Program-made: the position numbers and the translations under genes
The notes under the pieces: model-generated
Databases searched by the model: none
What the model saw: the letters and a program-made list of their open reading frames with translations, nothing else
What the model was told of the DNA's origin: nothing
From: Streptomyces sp. SID3343
GTDB lineage: Bacteria; Actinomycetota; Actinomycetes; Streptomycetales; Streptomycetaceae
Reading direction: 5' to 3'
NCBI RefSeq assembly: GCF_009865215.1
Contig: NZ_WWJX01000773.1
Location: 1 to 35,562 of the forward strand
Length of the DNA: 35,562 bases
In this document: in pieces, positions 16,286 to 35,562 of the stretch
Numbering within the stretch: the stretch's first letter is position 1
Layout: every line of letters begins with the position of its first letter

Positions 16286-17860
16286 ATGGCAACAACCACC
16301 GTGCCCGCACCGCAGCCGTCCACCTCCGCCCGCCCGCGCGGCGTCGCCGCGATCGCCGTCGTGGTCGTCCTGGGCTCGGTCATGTCGGTGCTCGACATGA
16401 CCGTGGTCAACGTCGCGCTCAACCACCTCTCGCAGGACTTCGACGCCCCGCTCGCCACGATCCAGTGGGTGGCCACCGGCTACACCCTGGCCCTGGCCAC
16501 GGTGATCCCGGTCGCCGCGTGGGCGATGGGCCGCTTCGGTACCAAGCGCCTGTACATGTTCTCCATCACGACGTTCGCGGCCGGTTCCGTCCTGGCGGGT
16601 CTGGCCTGGTCGGCGGAGTCGCTGATCGCCTTCCGGGTGGTGCAAGGGCTGGGCGGCGGCCTGATCATGCCGGTCGGCATGACCATCCTGGCCCGGGCGT
16701 CCGACCCGAGCCGAATGGGCCGCACGATGGCCATCCTGGGCATCCCGATCCTGATCGGCCCCCTCGCCGGGCCCATCCTGGGCGGCTGGCTCGTGGACGA
16801 CGTCTCGTGGCGGTGGATCTTCTTCATCAACGTCCCGATCGGCGCCCTGGCACTGGGACTTGCCGCGCGAGTGTTCCCGCGCGATACCCCGCAACCGACC
16901 AGGCCGCTGGACGTGATCGGCCTGCTGATGCTCTCCCCCGGACTCGCGCTGCTGATCTACGGACTGGCCACCGGCGGCGAGAAGGCCGACTTCACCGGCC
17001 CCGGAACGCTCGTGCCCGCACTGCTGGGCGCACTGTCGGTGGTCGCGTTCGTCATCCGGGCGCTGCGCGTCGAGCACCCGCTGATCGACCTGGGCCTGTT
17101 CCGCAGCCGGGCGTTCGCCGCCGCGGCCGCGACGATGGTGCTGTTCGTGTGCGCCTATTTCGGCTCGATGATGCTCGCCCCGATGTACTACCAACTGGTG
17201 CGCGGCGAAAGCGCGACCGCGTCCGGTCTGCTCGGCGCGCCGCAGGCGATCACCACCGCGGTCACCATGCAGTTCGCCAGCCGACTCAGCGACCGGATCG
17301 CGCCGGGACGAATCGTCCTGGCCGGGATCGTGGTCGGCGCCTCGGGCTTCCTCGCCTTCACCACGCAGGTCGCCGCCGACACCCCCTACTGGGTACTGAT
17401 GGGCTGCCTGGCGGTGACGGGCGTCGGCGTCGGGATGACGCTCATGCCGACCACGGCGTCGGCGCTGCGGGAGATGTCCCACGAGCAGGTTCCGGTAGCG
17501 GGCACCACATTGACGATCGTCCAGCAGATCTCGGCCGCGCTCGGCGGCGCGCTGGTGTCGGTACTCCTGGCCGGCGCGATGCGCGACAACCTGCCCGAGG
17601 GTCGGGGCGCGGGCGGTCTGGGCGAACTGCACTCGCTGTCGCCGACCACCGTCCACGAGATCGCACCGCGCCTCGCGGACGCGTTCCAAAGCTCCTACTC
17701 GTGGTCGGTCGCGTTGATGGCGTCGGCGTTCCTCCCCGCGCTGTTCATGAGCCGCCGCCGGCCGGCAACGGCCATCGGGCCCGAGGCCGCGCAGCCCGTC
17801 GAACCTGCCACACCCCGCCCCGAGGAGGACCGGACCAACCCCGCCCCCACTCACGTCTAG
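16286..17860 (+). CDS. DHA2-family MFS drug efflux transporter (EmrB/QacA type)
   Basis: 524 residues with about 14 predicted membrane helices, the DHA2 size. Motif D1/antiporter signatures are visible: SVLDMTVVNVALNHLSQDF in helix 1, WVATGYTLALATVIPVAAW in helix 2, a motif-A loop GRFGTKRLYM, and GLGGGLIMPVG plus LGIPILIGPLAGPILGGWL (motif C-like) in helix 5. The C-terminal 45 residues are a Pro/Glu-rich cytoplasmic tail. It should be a proton-coupled multidrug exporter in the cytoplasmic membrane; the substrate is unknown. ATG 16286 follows CAGGAG; GTG 16283 is one codon earlier. The gene is downstream of and likely cotranscribed with the FMN reductase. A bidirectional hairpin follows. Confidence 0.92.
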   Translation: MATTTVPAPQPSTSARPRGVAAIAVVVVLGSVMSVLDMTVVNVALNHLSQDFDAPLATIQWVATGYTLALATVIPVAAWAMGRFGTKRLYMFSITTFAAGSVLAGLAWSAESLIAFRVVQGLGGGLIMPVGMTILARASDPSRMGRTMAILGIPILIGPLAGPILGGWLVDDVSWRWIFFINVPIGALALGLAARVFPRDTPQPTRPLDVIGLLMLSPGLALLIYGLATGGEKADFTGPGTLVPALLGALSVVAFVIRALRVEHPLIDLGLFRSRAFAAAAATMVLFVCAYFGSMMLAPMYYQLVRGESATASGLLGAPQAITTAVTMQFASRLSDRIAPGRIVLAGIVVGASGFLAFTTQVAADTPYWVLMGCLAVTGVGVGMTLMPTTASALREMSHEQVPVAGTTLTIVQQISAALGGALVSVLLAGAMRDNLPEGRGAGGLGELHSLSPTTVHEIAPRLADAFQSSYSWSVALMASAFLPALFMSRRRPATAIGPEAAQPVEPATPRPEEDRTNPAPTHV

Positions 17861-31105: not shown

Positions 31106-31441
31106 GGACGCGGGCGCGCGCGGGGCTGCCGGGCTGCCGTCGGGTTGCCGTCGGGCTGCCGTCGGGCTGCCGTCGGGCCGTTGCCGGCCGCTGCTCAAGC
31201 ACCGCCCGACCGCCGCCGCGACTGCGGCTCAGGCACCGGCCTACCGCTGTGCGACCGTCGCTTGACCACCGTCCGACCGCCGTCCCACCGCCGTCCGACC
31301 GTCGCTCAACCGCCGCCCGAGCACCGCTCAACCGCCGCCGACCTGCGCGAGAGATGTAACTGACACGACGTCAGATTAACTTGCATGTGTCATTCAACTG
31401 GTGCCAGCATGCGATGACGGCAGCGGGTCGAAAGGGTGGAC
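31106..31441. repeat. Simple-repeat-rich intergenic region upstream of the SnoaL-like gene
   Basis: 336 bp without a supported gene. Two blocks of minisatellite-like DNA are visible: GGGCTGCCGTC units repeated about five times at 31128-31178, and degenerate CCGACCGCCGTCC/CTCAACCGCCGCC units at about 31264-31340. The last 90 bp are AT-richer and carry the dyad described at 31358-31372. Confidence 0.75.
31358..31372. promoter_or_regulatory. TetR-type inverted repeat upstream of the SnoaL-MFS operon
   Basis: CTGAC-ACGAC-GTCAG has perfect 5-bp arms, set in an AT-richer stretch (GTAACTGAC...GTCAGATTAAC) about 70 bp upstream of the start. TetR-family operators often look like this next to efflux pump genes. 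The adjacent GATTAACTTGCATG may hold promoter elements. Confidence 0.5.
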
Positions 31442-32083
31442 ATGCACGACGACGAGGCGGATTCGCATGTTCTGCGCGATCGAGGTGACCGGCGCGATGA
31501 AGGTGACCCGCGTGATCGAGGTGCCCGTCGCGACCTGGGCGACCGTCGCGACCCAGGTGACCGTCGCGACCGAAGCGACTCGCACGATCGCGGCCACGTG
31601 CGCGATCACAGCCCCTTGCCCGACCGAAGCCTCGACCGAAGCCCCCTGCACGACCGAAGCGAGATACGCGACGTAGTGCAGACCTACGCGCACGGCGCGG
31701 ACCGTCGAAAGCCGGAGCTCGTCGCGTCGATGTTCACGCCCGAGGGCCGCCTGATCATCCACCGCGACCCCGGATCGACCGAGCCGCCGGCCGTACGCAC
31801 CGGTCGCACCGAGATCGCCAAGGCCCTGACCAGCCTCGAACGCTACCTGGCCACCACACATCTGATCGCCAATCAGCTCGTGTCGTTCGAGCCCGGCGGC
31901 GACCGCGCGAACGCCGAGACGTACTGCACCGCGCACCACATCTACGAGTCGAGCGGAGTACGGCGCGACCGGGTCATGTCGATCCGCTACCTCGACACCT
32001 TCGCGCGCACCGACGAGGGTTGGCGCATCGAAACCCGCACACTGCACTGTGACTGGGTCCAGGACCGGCCACTCACGGGATGA
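31442..32083 (+). CDS. SnoaL-like (NTF2 fold) protein with Arg/Asp-repeat N-terminus
   Basis: 213 residues. The C-terminal 140 residues form a SnoaL-like/NTF2-type cone: EIRDVVQTYAHGADRRKPELVASMFTPEGRLIIH, then TGRTEIAKAL, TTHLIANQLVSFE, ANAETYCTAHHIY, and RDRVMSIRYLDTFARTDEGWRIETRTLHCDW. Members are polyketide cyclases, isomerases or dehydratases, or plain ligand-binding folds. The first 70 residues are almost entirely Arg, Asp, Gly, His and Ser (DRGDRRDEGDPRDRG type), a mixed-charge low-complexity region not seen in ordinary SnoaL proteins. ATG 31442 has AAAGGG at a 5-bp spacing; GTG 31436 has none. The stop overlaps the MFS start (ATGA at 32080), coupling the two. Joint action on one small aromatic compound is inferred. 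Confidence 0.75.
   Translation: MHDDEADSHVLRDRGDRRDEGDPRDRGARRDLGDRRDPGDRRDRSDSHDRGHVRDHSPLPDRSLDRSPLHDRSEIRDVVQTYAHGADRRKPELVASMFTPEGRLIIHRDPGSTEPPAVRTGRTEIAKALTSLERYLATTHLIANQLVSFEPGGDRANAETYCTAHHIYESSGVRRDRVMSIRYLDTFARTDEGWRIETRTLHCDWVQDRPLTG
31480..31665. repeat. GCGACC-type minisatellite encoding the Arg/Asp stretch
   Basis: GACC/GCGACC/GATCG words recur throughout, for example CCCGTCGCGACCTGGGCGACC, then CGTCGCGACCCAGGTGACC, then CGTCGCGACCGAAGCGAC. All three forward frames are low complexity here (Arg/Asp, Val/Ala/Thr, or mixed), which points to DNA-level repeat expansion rather than selection on one peptide. Confidence 0.75.
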
Positions 32084-33567
32084 GCACCACCGCCGACGGG
32101 ACCGAGCGCGCGCAAGCCAAGCGCTACGGCCCCACGATGATCCTTGTAGCGCTGTCCTTCGCGGCCACCACCGTGGCCGTCATGCAGACCGTCGTCTCAC
32201 CGATCCTGCCTCGCCTGCAGCACACCCTGGGGGTGTCCAGCTCGGCCATCGCGTGGGTGCTCACCGGCAACCTGCTCGCGGCCGCGGTCGCGACGCCGCT
32301 GCTCGGCCGACTCGGCGACCTGCGCGGCAGGAAACGATTCCTCTTGTTCGCGCTGGGCGCGGTGGCGGTCGGTTCCGTCCTCGCCGCGTGCACCACGTCC
32401 TACGTCATGCTCATCGCGGGGCGCGTCCTGCAGGGCATGGGCGGCGGCGTGGTCCCGCTCGCGCTCAGCGTCGTCCGCGACGAATTCCCGAAGGAACGTT
32501 CCGCGGGCAGCATCGCCACGATCGGCGCGACGATCAGCGTCGGCGCGACCTTCGGTTCGGTGATGACCGGCCTGATCGCCGACCGCTGGGACTACCACCT
32601 GCTGTTCTGGCTCTCCGCACTCGTCGCGGTGCTGTCGCTGCTGATGGTGTGGCGGGTCGTACCGGACACCGCGCGACGGCGCGAGGGACGCGTGGACCTG
32701 GTGGGCGCGGCGACGCTGTCGGGCTGGCTCGCGTTCCTGCTCGCGGCGATCAGCATGGGCAGCCGCTCGGGCTGGACCGACCCACTCGTGATCGGCGGCC
32801 TGATCCTGGCCGCCCTCACGTTCGCGGCCTGGATCGCGTGGGCCCTGCACCACCCCGAACCGCTCGTGGACCTACGGGTGATGGCCAAGCGCCCGGTACT
32901 GCTCGCGAACCTGTCCGGCATCTTCAGCGGCATGGCGATGTACGGCTCGTCACTGCTGTTCCCGCCGTTCCTCCAAGCACCGTCCGCACTCGGCTACGGA
33001 TTCGGCAAGTCGGTCCTGATGGCGGGCCTGATCATGCTGCCGGGCACGATCGGCAACCTCGCGGCGGCCCCGGTCGCGGGCCGAATGATCAACCGCTACG
33101 GACCCAAGCCCGCGCTCGTCCTCGGCCCCCTGCTCAGCGGCACCGCATTCGCGCTGCTGTTGCCACTGCACGGGTACTGGTGGGCCTTCTCCATGATCGG
33201 CGTCCTGTTCGGCTTCGGCCTGGGCCTCGCCTTCTCCGCGATGCCGGCCCTGATCAACGACAACGTACCGGCGGACATGACAGGCGTCGCCAACGGCATG
33301 AACTCGGTCCTGCGCACGGTGGGCGGCGCAACCGGCACCGCAGTCCTCGGCGCGATCCTGGGCGCGGTCACCGTCGACGGCACAACCGCCCAAGCAGCCG
33401 GCGTCGCACACGCCCCAAGCCTGACGGCCTACCTGATCTGCTTCGGCATGCTCGCCACAGGCTGCGTAATCGCAGCCCTGATGACCGTGTCCATCCCCAC
33501 CACCCCCCGCACCCCGACAGCCGCCCCGATAGCCACCTCCCCCAACCGCGTAGACGCCGCACGGTAG
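32080..33567 (+). CDS. DHA2-type MFS efflux transporter
   Basis: 495 residues, about 14 predicted membrane helices. Helix 1 contains TTVAVMQTVVSPILPRLQ and helix 2 AWVLTGNLLAAAVATPLLGRLGDLRGRKRF, whose GRLGDLRGRKR is a full MFS motif A. GRVLQGMGGGVVPLALSVVRDEF is motif B-like and IGATISVGATFGSVMTGLIAD a motif C-like helix. A proton-coupled drug exporter is expected; the substrate is unknown. ATG 32080 overlaps the SnoaL-like stop by four bases. The C-terminus (about 20 residues, PTAAPIATSPNRVDAAR) is encoded by the first copy of the repeat array, so the gene's own end may have been replaced by repeat sequence. Third-position A and C rise sharply in its last 500 bp. Confidence 0.92.
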   Translation: MSTTADGTERAQAKRYGPTMILVALSFAATTVAVMQTVVSPILPRLQHTLGVSSSAIAWVLTGNLLAAAVATPLLGRLGDLRGRKRFLLFALGAVAVGSVLAACTTSYVMLIAGRVLQGMGGGVVPLALSVVRDEFPKERSAGSIATIGATISVGATFGSVMTGLIADRWDYHLLFWLSALVAVLSLLMVWRVVPDTARRREGRVDLVGAATLSGWLAFLLAAISMGSRSGWTDPLVIGGLILAALTFAAWIAWALHHPEPLVDLRVMAKRPVLLANLSGIFSGMAMYGSSLLFPPFLQAPSALGYGFGKSVLMAGLIMLPGTIGNLAAAPVAGRMINRYGPKPALVLGPLLSGTAFALLLPLHGYWWAFSMIGVLFGFGLGLAFSAMPALINDNVPADMTGVANGMNSVLRTVGGATGTAVLGAILGAVTVDGTTAQAAGVAHAPSLTAYLICFGMLATGCVIAALMTVSIPTTPRTPTAAPIATSPNRVDAAR

Positions 33568-34499
33568 GAGCAGGGCCTGACCCTCAACGGCCCGGGCACC
33601 CGACCCACCCCGACCCAACGGCCCTCCCCTGGACCCCGCCACGCGATCACGCCACCGACGCCCCCGCCCGCCCCGGCCCATCCCGCGGCACCCCGACAGC
33701 AGCCCCACCCAACCGCGCAGGCGCCGCACGACAGCCGGGAACAAACCGCCGACAACACAACCACCCGAGCAACCGGCACGATCCCTGCCCAACCCAACGG
33801 CCTACCCAACCCCGGCACACACACGCCCCGACCACGCAATCGCGCCCCCGACGCACCCCGGCAGCAGCCCCCAACCGCGTAAACGCCGCACGGCCGGAGA
33901 AGGGAGTGACTGTCGACGAGACACCCACCCGAACGACCGCCGCAACACACACCAAACCCGACGACCCACCCAATCTCCACCCCGCCACATGCCCGCCCCG
34001 GCCACGCAATCGCCACCCCGACGACCATGCCGAGCCACCCAACACCCGCCGGCCGCAACCCCGTTAGCCGTCCCACCCAACCGCGTAGACGCCGCACGAT
34101 AAACGACGAGAGTCACCGCCGACGACGCGGCAACCACACACCAAACCCGAAGGCCCACCCAATCCGCCCCGGCACACGCCCGCCCCGGCCACGTAATCGC
34201 CACACCGACGACCACACCCACCCCGAGCCACCCAACACCCCCCGACCGCAACCCCGTTAGCCGTCCCACCCAACCCCGTAGACGCCGCACGATAAACGAC
34301 GAGAGTCACCGCCGACGACGCGGCGACCGCCCGACCACACACCAAACCCGACGGCCCACCCAATCCGCCCCGGCACAACACGCGACCGGGCCACGTGATC
34401 GCGGCACCAACGACCGCGCCCACCCGGCCACCCGCCGCGCCCCGACAACCAGCCGGACAGCCACCAGCCGACAGCACCCAACCGCGTGACCGCCGCACG
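33542..34499. repeat. Six-copy degenerate tandem repeat array between the MFS and TPR genes
   Basis: The core CAACCGCGTAGACGCCGCAC recurs, with small changes, at 33543, 33710, 33872, 34078, 34271 and 34479, spaced 167, 162, 206, 193 and 208 bp. A second block, CCACG(C/T)(A/G)ATC(G/A)C, follows each of the first five copies at 33639, 33832, 34002, 34189 and 34391. Copies 4 and 5 are nearly identical over more than 50 bp, including ATAAACGACGAGAGTCACC, and their upstream flanks ending CCCCGTTAGCCGTCCCAC are also shared. Copy 1 holds the last seven codons and stop of the MFS gene; copy 6 runs to 20 bp before the TPR start. Unit lengths are not multiples of three, so the array is non-coding. No flanking target-site duplication or transposase is visible. 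Confidence 0.9.
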
Positions 34500-34517
34500 G
34501 TAGGAAAGACTGTCCCG
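33568..34517. other. 950-bp region without a supported gene, C-rich strand
   Basis: The stretch is the body of the repeat array. It is very rich in C and A and poor in G and T on the + strand (for example CCACCCAATC, ACACACCAAACCCGACG). Open frames on both strands are repeat-derived and change frame between units, so I do not call genes here. The promoter of the TPR gene, if separate, would lie at the right end. Confidence 0.6.
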
Positions 34518-35027
34518 ATGACCGCGAACGAACGAGACGCCGTACTGGCCGAGGCGATCGCGCTGCGCGAAGCAGGTCGAGCCGAGGAGGCCCGCGAACC
34601 GCTGGTACGGCTGGTCGAACAACACCCGGGCGACGCCCAACTGGCCTACCAGGCGGCATGGGTCCACGACGTGCTCGGCCTCGAACGCGAGGCAGTCCCG
34701 TTCTACGAATGGGCCTTGATCGGCGACGGCCTCCCCGCCTCCGACCGCCTGGGCGCCTTCGTGGGCCTGGGCAGCACCTACCGCGCCCTCGGGGCCCACG
34801 ACAAGGCCGTGACCACCCTCCGCCGAGGACTCACCGAGTTCCCCGCCGACCCGGCCCTGACCACCTTCCTGGCCATGGCCCTGTACAACTCGGGCGCGGA
34901 CGCAGCAAAGGAAGCAGTCGAGTCCCTCCTACGAGTAATCGCCACCACAACCAACGACCCACGCCTGACCCCATACCGCCCAGCGATCACCCACTACGCA
35001 ACGAACCTGGACGTCACCCACGACTAA
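34518..35027 (+). CDS. Tetratricopeptide-repeat protein
   Basis: 169 residues, all helical. Repeats of TPR type follow one another: LAEAIALREAGRAEEAREPLVRLVEQHPGDA, then QLAYQAAWVHDVLGLEREAVPFYEWALIGD, then RLGAFVGLGSTYRALGAHDKAVTTLRRGLTEFPADP and a less regular last pair. The Trp/Tyr-rich AAWVHDVLG and GLGSTYRALG motifs match the small tetratricopeptide-repeat family (about 160 residues) found in Bacillus and Streptomyces. TPRs mediate protein contacts; the partner is unknown. ATG 34518 has GGAAAG upstream, within the last repeat copy of the array. Codon use is A- and C-rich at third positions near the 3' end, like the neighbouring repeats. No downstream gene is supported. Confidence 0.85.
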   Translation: MTANERDAVLAEAIALREAGRAEEAREPLVRLVEQHPGDAQLAYQAAWVHDVLGLEREAVPFYEWALIGDGLPASDRLGAFVGLGSTYRALGAHDKAVTTLRRGLTEFPADPALTTFLAMALYNSGADAAKEAVESLLRVIATTTNDPRLTPYRPAITHYATNLDVTHD

Positions 35028-35562
35028 CCGCCTCGCCCGGCCCGGCCCTCAAAACCGTCGACCACCCGAGGCCCCGTCACACCGCCCGGCGTTGGCGTTG
35101 AGGGCGCCCAAACACCCACCGAACACCCAGCAAACCAAGCACCGCGGACCCCGCCCATCCGTCCGGCAAGCAAGGGCACCCGACCACCTGCCGAACGCGC
35201 CCGGCCACCCAGACCACCCGAACCCGCCGGCCCGCCCGACGACCGAGGCACCCGAGCACCCGGCACCCGAGCACCCGCCGAACTCCTGTTTCACCCGAAC
35301 AACACCGACCCGCCCGGGGCTCCGACAACACCCAACGCCGCACGCACACACCCAAATCCACCATCCGCCAGGCCGCACCCCATACTCTCCGCGCAGCCGG
35401 ATACAGCCCAACTCCCCCAGCGTGCCCAGCGCTTGACGACGCCCTGAACCACCTACCCCACAAGCCATCGAGAGCAACCCAGGCAGGCGCAGCCGGGCGA
35501 GGCGGGGCCGGGCGGGCGCACACGGGCAGAGCCGGGCGGGGCGGGGCTGGTGCAGCAGGGCA
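35028..35562. other. Intergenic low-complexity C-rich DNA
   Basis: 535 bp to the window edge without a supported gene. It is C/A-rich on the + strand to about 35480, with one perfect 2 x 15-bp tandem (GGCACCCGAGCACCC at 35247 and 35262). At about 35500 it flips to a G-rich run. Open frames here are low complexity on both strands and I reject them. Confidence 0.6.
35504..35546 (+). other. G-quadruplex-forming motif
   Basis: G runs at 35504-35507, 35510-35512, 35514-35516, 35524-35526, 35534-35536, 35538-35541 and 35543-35546 are separated by loops of one to seven bases. This satisfies the usual G3+N1-7 pattern at least twice. Confidence 0.6.

Follow-up and report, generated by a model that had tools for sequence, protein, structure and literature searches.

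A decayed tandem repeat array between an MFS transporter gene and a TPR protein gene of Embleya, probably derived from the 3' end of the transporter gene

In the Mycobacterium tuberculosis complex, the junction between rnc and fpg1 (ETR-F / VNTR3239) is occupied by 279-358 bp of direct repeats, compared with 1-54 bp in the other mycobacteria shown and 6 bp in six of them, and the length of these repeats has been connected with downstream gene expression (PMC2734929, in the part of that article used here). MIRUs are dispersed (41 sites), apparently mobile and contain an ORF that is coupled to the gene that follows (PMC12548453, PMC2734929, in the parts used here). The rnc-fpg1 junction, as these parts of the sources portray it, is the closest precedent found in the literature for the locus described here. 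A more general background is offered by partial tandem gene duplication, in which slippage or unequal recombination leaves head-to-tail copies of a segment at its own locus, with mosaic similarity between neighbouring copies. No case of tandem duplication of a gene tail was named among the matches listed in a narrow literature search of open-licence articles.

The window, which is the whole stretch of DNA analysed, corresponds to an entire contig of 35,562 bp from a draft assembly of 11.06 Mb in 1,645 contigs. Judged by its closest named relatives, the genome (G000) belongs to the genus Embleya, and it was compared with E. hyalina NBRC 13850 (G001), E. scabrispora DSM 41855 (G002) and a further Embleya genome (G003). 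The features of the junction are collected in Table 1. Relatives of the MFS transporter were found in E. scabrispora (85% identity in the best segment), E. hyalina (83%) and Yinghuangia soli (72%), and in E. scabrispora the MFS gene is adjoined by a TPR relative with 80% identity.

Table 1. Features of the MFS-TPR junction, with positions in the window.
Feature	Position	Strand	Basis or remark
SnoaL-like gene (PF13577)	31436-32083	+	Pfam; ATGA overlap with the MFS start
MFS transporter gene (PF07690)	32080-33567	+	Pfam; 495 aa, C-terminus PNRVDAAR-stop
Copy 1, the repeat source: 3'-terminal part of the MFS coding sequence	33369-33567	+	Alignments; from about ACCGTCGACGG to the stop, start approximate
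C/A-rich, T-poor zone (+ strand) covering the array	33451-34500	.	GC skew about -0.40, AT skew about +0.70
Unit 2 (167 bp), most decayed	33568-33734	+	Body at chance level; alignment including the core significant
Unit 3 (162 bp)	33735-33896	+	Alignment to the MFS tail
Unit 4 (206 bp)	33897-34102	+	Alignment to the MFS tail
Unit 5 (193 bp), 87% identical to unit 4	34103-34295	+	Alignment
Unit 6 (208 bp), final copy, with stop-codon equivalent TAG at its end	34296-34503	+	Alignment
14-nt spacer GAAAGACTGTCCCG ahead of the TPR ATG	34504-34517	+	Matches GGAAGACTGCCCGG of E. scabrispora
TPR protein gene (PF12688)	34518-35027	+	Pfam; 169 aa
Second C/A-rich zone, at and past the TPR end	34951-35500	.	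Composition close to that of the array

Six copies of one block lie between the MFS and TPR genes. Their 20-nt cores were located at 33544, 33711, 33873, 34079, 34272 and 34480, and carry, in this order, 0, 2, 1, 0, 1 and 3 mismatches to AACCGCGTAGACGCCGCACG. When units are delimited at the MFS stop codon and its equivalents, units 2-6 sum to 936 bp (33568-34503), and the successive copies are spaced 167, 162, 206, 193 and 208 bp apart. The earlier note on this DNA had described five to six tandem copies of a variable, frame-breaking unit of about 160-210 bp, the first ending the MFS gene and the last abutting the TPR gene, and had preferred a DNA- or RNA-level role to a coding one; the arrangement is confirmed, the final stop equivalent lying 14 nt before the TPR start and the unit lengths breaking the reading frame, and a DNA-level nature, as opposed to a coding one, is supported. 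Its description of copies 4 and 5 as near-identical is roughly right, holding for all but one position of the 33-nt core and for 87% of positions across the units. Units 5 and 6 share 83% identity, and whole-unit divergence between copies ranges from 13 to 35%, with indels in addition. Tandem Repeats Finder (TRF) by itself detects just 33933-34433, with a period of 193 and 2.6 copies.

The source of the repeated block is the gene immediately upstream. Units 3-6 align head to tail and on the same strand to the end of the MFS coding sequence, over its final ~200 bp, with a body identity of 67-68%. After removal of the core, units 3, 4, 5 and 6 scored 71, 98, 91 and 111 against the MFS tail (from ~33369), compared with mean scores of 36 to 49 for dinucleotide shuffles (z 7.6, 8.4, 7.6 and 9.8; 0 of 300 shuffles in each case), and the origin of these units is thus established. 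The body of unit 2 scored 39 against a shuffle mean of 40.2, which is not significant, and this unit can be recognised as a copy by its core alone, the alignment that includes the core reaching z 4.6. With the C-rich stretch behind the TPR gene taken as a control instead, z was 0.6-0.9 in the case of units 3, 5 and 6, 3.0 in that of unit 2 (1/300 shuffles) and 2.4 in that of unit 4 (4/300), so that a little of the similarity of the last two reflects shared local composition. In the alignment, the units start at approximately one place in the gene (ACCGTCGACGG), directly after a remnant of stop and spacer, and the unit therefore consists of gene tail, stop codon and a piece of spacer.

We regard the array as a decayed tandem duplication of the MFS 3' end, comprising the stop codon, the ~200 bp of coding sequence ahead of it and some of the spacer behind it, with a probability of roughly 0.86. 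The array belongs to the class of intergenic minisatellites made by partial tandem gene duplication, and is most likely a near-neutral one built from gene tails; both the near-neutrality and the mechanism, slippage or unequal recombination, are inferred. The unit being the MFS gene's own 3' end, an origin of the array as a set of binding sites or RNA structures, as initially proposed, is not supported. The first event would have been the tandem duplication, in the present lineage, of the ~200-bp MFS tail together with its stop and a piece of the spacer, and it would have been tolerable because the C-terminus and stop of MFS are still provided by copy 1, as is the TPR leader by copy 6.

The junction of E. 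scabrispora lacks the array. Its genes occur in the order SnoaL-like, MFS (with the ATGA overlap found again) and TPR, the last following after a 14-nt gap, so that the distance from MFS stop to TPR start is 950 nt in the present genome and 14 nt in E. scabrispora. The 950 nt are the 936 bp of the five extra units plus 14 nt, and the spacer before the ATG is nearly the same in both species. In E. hyalina and G003 an apparent histidine-kinase/response-regulator pair (by eye) comes after the MFS gene, and this leaves E. scabrispora as the sole informative relative for the junction. The gene 3' of TPR in E. scabrispora had no match in the present genome at E 1e-20.

The copies have changed in one direction. 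Between the MFS tail and the copies, 65 of 91 T cells had become C and 63 of 190 G cells had become A, against 3 of 339 for C to T and 26 of 129 for A to G. The array is composed of 50% C, 24% A, 22% G and 4% T, and the non-coding DNA past the TPR gene of 49% C, 22% A, 22% G and 7% T. These one-way substitutions and the matching composition indicate that the copies moved to the local composition; after duplication, the copies remaining between the two genes would have drifted toward the strand-asymmetric composition of the locus. At the thresholds used, C/A-rich, T-poor zones occur only here, as two patches, in 447,818 sampled bases of G000 including the window, and elsewhere 11 such patches were found in 631,001 bases of G003, one in 140,000 bases of G002 and none in 22,108 bases of G001. 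The E. scabrispora locus is C/A-rich too, from the TPR 3' end onward.

Several observations concern this composition in its own right. A strand asymmetry with a + strand rich in C and A and poor in T is present in two Embleya species (window 33300-35500; L067:3001-5000), and the C/A shift extends to third codon positions in the last ~95 MFS codons and in the TPR gene (by eye, in 40-codon bins). C-rich 3' ends across the genome were considered as a source of the composition and rejected, the median downstream GC skew in the G000 sample without the window being 0.0, with 2 of 141 values below -0.35. The DNA past the TPR gene (35028-35562) bears a weak resemblance to two of the five repeat consensuses compared (z 4.1 and 3.2), among them that of a 180-bp tandem repeat of G003 (z 4.1). 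Past the TPR gene of E. scabrispora (L017:6150-6310), three short CCGGCGTTTGAGGAC-like copies were seen by eye, and a CCGGCGTTTGAGGAC-like motif is also found inside the 180-bp tandem repeat of G003 (L026:672-1033), the whole giving the impression of an interspersed motif (by eye).

The timing of the duplication was approached through the positions at which the MFS tail of the present genome (own) and that of E. scabrispora differ. Counted in cells, which are not independent events, the copies carried the own base in 150 cases, the E. scabrispora base in 24 and another base in 26 where the bias favours the own base; the corresponding counts were 32, 14 and 10 where the C/A bias opposes it, and 47, 13 and 20 where the difference is neutral to the bias. 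The own base prevails in all three classes, which suggests that the duplication is younger than the split from E. scabrispora, and on this sequence comparison the array most likely arose in the present lineage. Alignment of the unit bodies to the E. scabrispora tail gave nothing significant (z -1.3 to 1.5). An older array may have been lost by recombination in E. scabrispora, a course of events compatible with synteny alone.

Within the array, similarity is distributed as a mosaic. The first aligned segment of units 5 and 6 is identical at 36 of 36 positions; units 4 and 5 resemble each other over their later part (52/57, with 32/33 in the core), and units 4 and 6 are less alike. This mosaic similarity of units 4-6 points to the duplication, out of register, of a segment that covered two units. 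A later out-of-register re-amplification would thus have left units 4 and 5 with a shared later part, and units 5 and 6 with a shared start. The earlier suggestion of repeated duplication is supported, in the sense of tandem duplication at different times.

The alternative that fares best holds that the array began as tail duplications and is now under selection, the 25-30 nt core acting as a repeated protein-binding, RNA-processing or termination site. The core is indeed better conserved than the rest: the last 33 columns hold 26 changes in 155 cells against 49.7 predicted from base-specific body rates, and every one of the best 25-column windows, for which at least 100 of the 125 cells had to be filled, falls in the core, reaching up to 0.90 identity against 0.76 elsewhere. 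This excess conservation, the single result pointing beyond drift, implies that uniform neutral drift does not account for everything, although the units were found via that same core, and a choice of units that relies on the block conserved best introduces a bias into the comparison. Selection, conversion between cores, or recognition of units by the core block could each produce it, gene conversion having the same appearance as selection.

A kept hairpin was rejected as the reason for core conservation. The hairpin described in the earlier note for copies 1 and 6 was found there, with a slight advantage over shuffles (z -1.5 and -2.1), but not as a property of the core in general: copy 3 forms a weaker hairpin that is no better than shuffles, copies 2, 4 and 5 form none (z 0.0 to +1.4 for copies 2-5), and the hairpin thus beats shuffles in just two of the six copies. 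In folding, the + strand RNA of the whole array showed no advantage over 20 shuffles (z +1.07), and the reverse strand a small one (z -1.68, 1/20 shuffles). Rfam (E up to 1), ARAGORN and a promoter consensus scan yielded no match, and terminator-like sites numbered 3, about as many as expected by chance (mean 2.8).

The distribution of the core also weighs against a selected site. Outside the array, the 11.06 Mb assembly contains five matches, all at 3 mismatches, compared with four for a reversed-pattern control, and within 2 mismatches the core has no second locus in the present genome, being confined to the array. In the three other Embleya genomes, there were five matches at 2 mismatches, against one for the reversed control, and these are scattered. 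We consider a selected core unlikely on this balance; a later regulatory role of the core may nonetheless have been added to a near-neutral tail-duplication array.

Whether such duplications recur in Embleya was addressed by a survey of gene ends, with gene calls from a simple codon-based finder that was trained on eight window genes and misses some genes. In a first survey of 865 genes, the top two scores were whole tandem paralogs in G003 and the MFS gene ranked third; inspection of the next four scores (46-48) revealed one rho tail, one paralog pair and two cases of uncertain kind. Among 813 gene ends from four Embleya genomes, a sample to which only G000 contributed its rho locus, the last 30 nt were repeated (at least 24 of 30) within 1.5 kb downstream in three, all of them in the present genome: the MFS gene, rho and a gene resembling a LuxR-type response regulator (by eye). 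The mirror image at gene starts occurred in 0 of 784, and for internal 30-mers there were 0-2 matches per offset, which trace back to the MFS array, to tandem paralogs and to P-loop-like motifs. Counts of 3/813 and 0/784 are too small for a claim that tail duplication is a frequent process.

The individual tandem 3' ends may be described as follows. The last 29 nt of rho, including the stop, are repeated in tandem together with the following DNA at L097 (~16430-16520, - strand), L116, L117 and L118. The rho tail occurs in two copies in G000, two in G001 and three in G003 (77-bp unit, 99%), and only the start of the repeat is visible in G002, where the contig end cuts it. At L102:11372-11585 and on, the LuxR-type regulator-like gene has its tail and stop repeated ~85 bp apart, with 2.5 copies of period 86 reported by TRF, and three clear copies plus fainter remnants recognised by eye. 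In E. scabrispora (L144:1360-1530), a small gene repeats its tail, its stop and an inverted repeat, the inverted repeats lying within 1 and 3 mismatches of the one that follows rho. The inverted repeats of the rho-type and L144 tails fold no better than shuffles (z -1.2, -0.5, +0.8 and +0.7), and a terminator role is accordingly not supported.

A broader reading would have duplication of 3' ends across the stop codon as a recurrent and partly selected process in Embleya, yielding tunable termination or attenuation arrays with rho among the targets. It would count, as its instances, the tandem ends of the MFS, rho and LuxR-like genes in the present genome, those of rho in the three others (one partial) and that of one E. 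scabrispora gene. We regard this generalisation as unlikely.

That the array belongs to a dispersed, MIRU-like or mobile intergenic repeat family which landed at this junction is very improbable. Its tandem position between two co-directional genes recalls MIRUs, and a dispersed tandem family of ~208 bp does exist in other Embleya, but the core has no second locus in 11 Mb, the array matches only itself by BLAST in the present genome (40 of 267 candidate places scored), no match was found in plasmid or phage collections at E 1e-5, and the unit is MFS coding sequence. Relatedness of the array to the 208-bp family was itself tried and not supported, with whole-array z values of -0.6 to 1.3 and values of up to 2.4 for units 4-5 (60 shuffles).

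The 208-bp family is described here as a separate observation. It comprises at least 157 matches in G003 and at least 88 in G001, with loci at L081:11551-13573, L069:13381-14882 and L079:7674-8189 in the former and at L152 in the latter; at E 1e-5, none was found in G000 (40 of 115 candidates scored) or G002 (40 of 167 scored). Copies flank, in opposite orientation, a centre of ~0.4-0.5 kb in L081, L069 and L152 and of ~0.1 kb in L079. A 620-nt stretch around the L081 centre shares 75% identity with L152 and 73% with L069, and holds a long inverted repeat.

An assembly artefact is conceivable in a draft of 1645 contigs, tandem repeats being error-prone, yet it is highly unlikely to explain the array, as the copies differ by 13-35% plus indels, which is not what assembly error would make, an artefact being expected to yield identical copies; among units 4-6, where similarity is greatest, the assembly may still have the wrong number of copies. 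Finally, attachment sites of integrative elements typically show repeated gene 3' ends with the stop codon, but the notion that the units are scars of such elements, each restoring the MFS tail on integration, is barely tenable, given that units 3-6 consist, in their bodies, of MFS coding sequence and not of foreign DNA, and that the ORFs of the array are short or in frames overlapping known genes, with no integrase recognised in the ORF list.

A near-neutral origin by tail duplication may still have had consequences for the downstream gene. The array would have ended the close spacing of MFS and TPR by inserting ~0.94 kb of untranslated, C-rich and G-poor RNA. In the array, 67 of 86 windows of 78 nt have at least 40% C and C at no less than twice G, compared with 1515 of 98,398 in other sampled G000 DNA on both strands. 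The array thus presents what is looked for in a region of Rho-dependent termination, namely long untranslated RNA, C well above G and little structure, and C-rich stretches have served as an indicator of Rho-dependent ends in work on Streptomyces (PMC2422843, in the part used here). Among ORFs of at least 20 aa, the only one on the + strand that reaches the TPR start is a GTG extension (34395) of the TPR frame, and no ORF coupled to TPR was found in the array transcript. With C-rich, G-poor, weakly folded RNA, a rho gene encoded in the present genome and no TPR-coupled ORF, a reduced or uncoupled expression of TPR is plausible. Judging from sequence features, we tentatively suggest, at somewhat worse than even odds, that the array RNA favours Rho-dependent termination and thereby lowers or uncouples TPR expression.

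The event is of an ordinary kind, with a few unusual details. It illustrates that a long intergenic repeat can come from a gene's own end with both neighbours left intact, and the species pair, with 14 nt and 950 nt at the same junction, allows the effect of such an insertion on adjacent genes to be asked. If tail duplications recur, they would offer a cheap route to new untranslated regions in high-GC actinobacteria, and possibly to termination arrays.

Compared with known systems, the array resembles partial tandem gene duplication in its head-to-tail copies at their own locus and in the mosaic similarity of neighbours, but differs from the ordinary form in that the segment spans the stop codon, so that the gene stays intact; the breakpoints are approximate. 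It shares with the rho 3'-end repeat of Embleya the head-to-tail repetition of gene tail, stop and following spacer, the rho repeat differing in its unit of ~77-82 bp with an inverted repeat, its 2-3 copies and its far lesser decay. With MIRUs, in the parts of the sources used, it has in common short units that are often tandem, intergenic and in contact with gene ends; unlike them, it is confined to a single locus, derived from a gene and devoid of a small ORF overlapping the next start codon. The rnc-fpg1 repeats, as that part of the literature describes them, begin 40 bp past the rnc stop, whereas the present unit was copied out of the upstream gene itself, comprising the 3' coding end and the stop codon, and the present copies, unlike those, are strongly decayed; what the two junctions share is that near-adjacent neighbouring genes have been pushed apart by direct repeats in one lineage.
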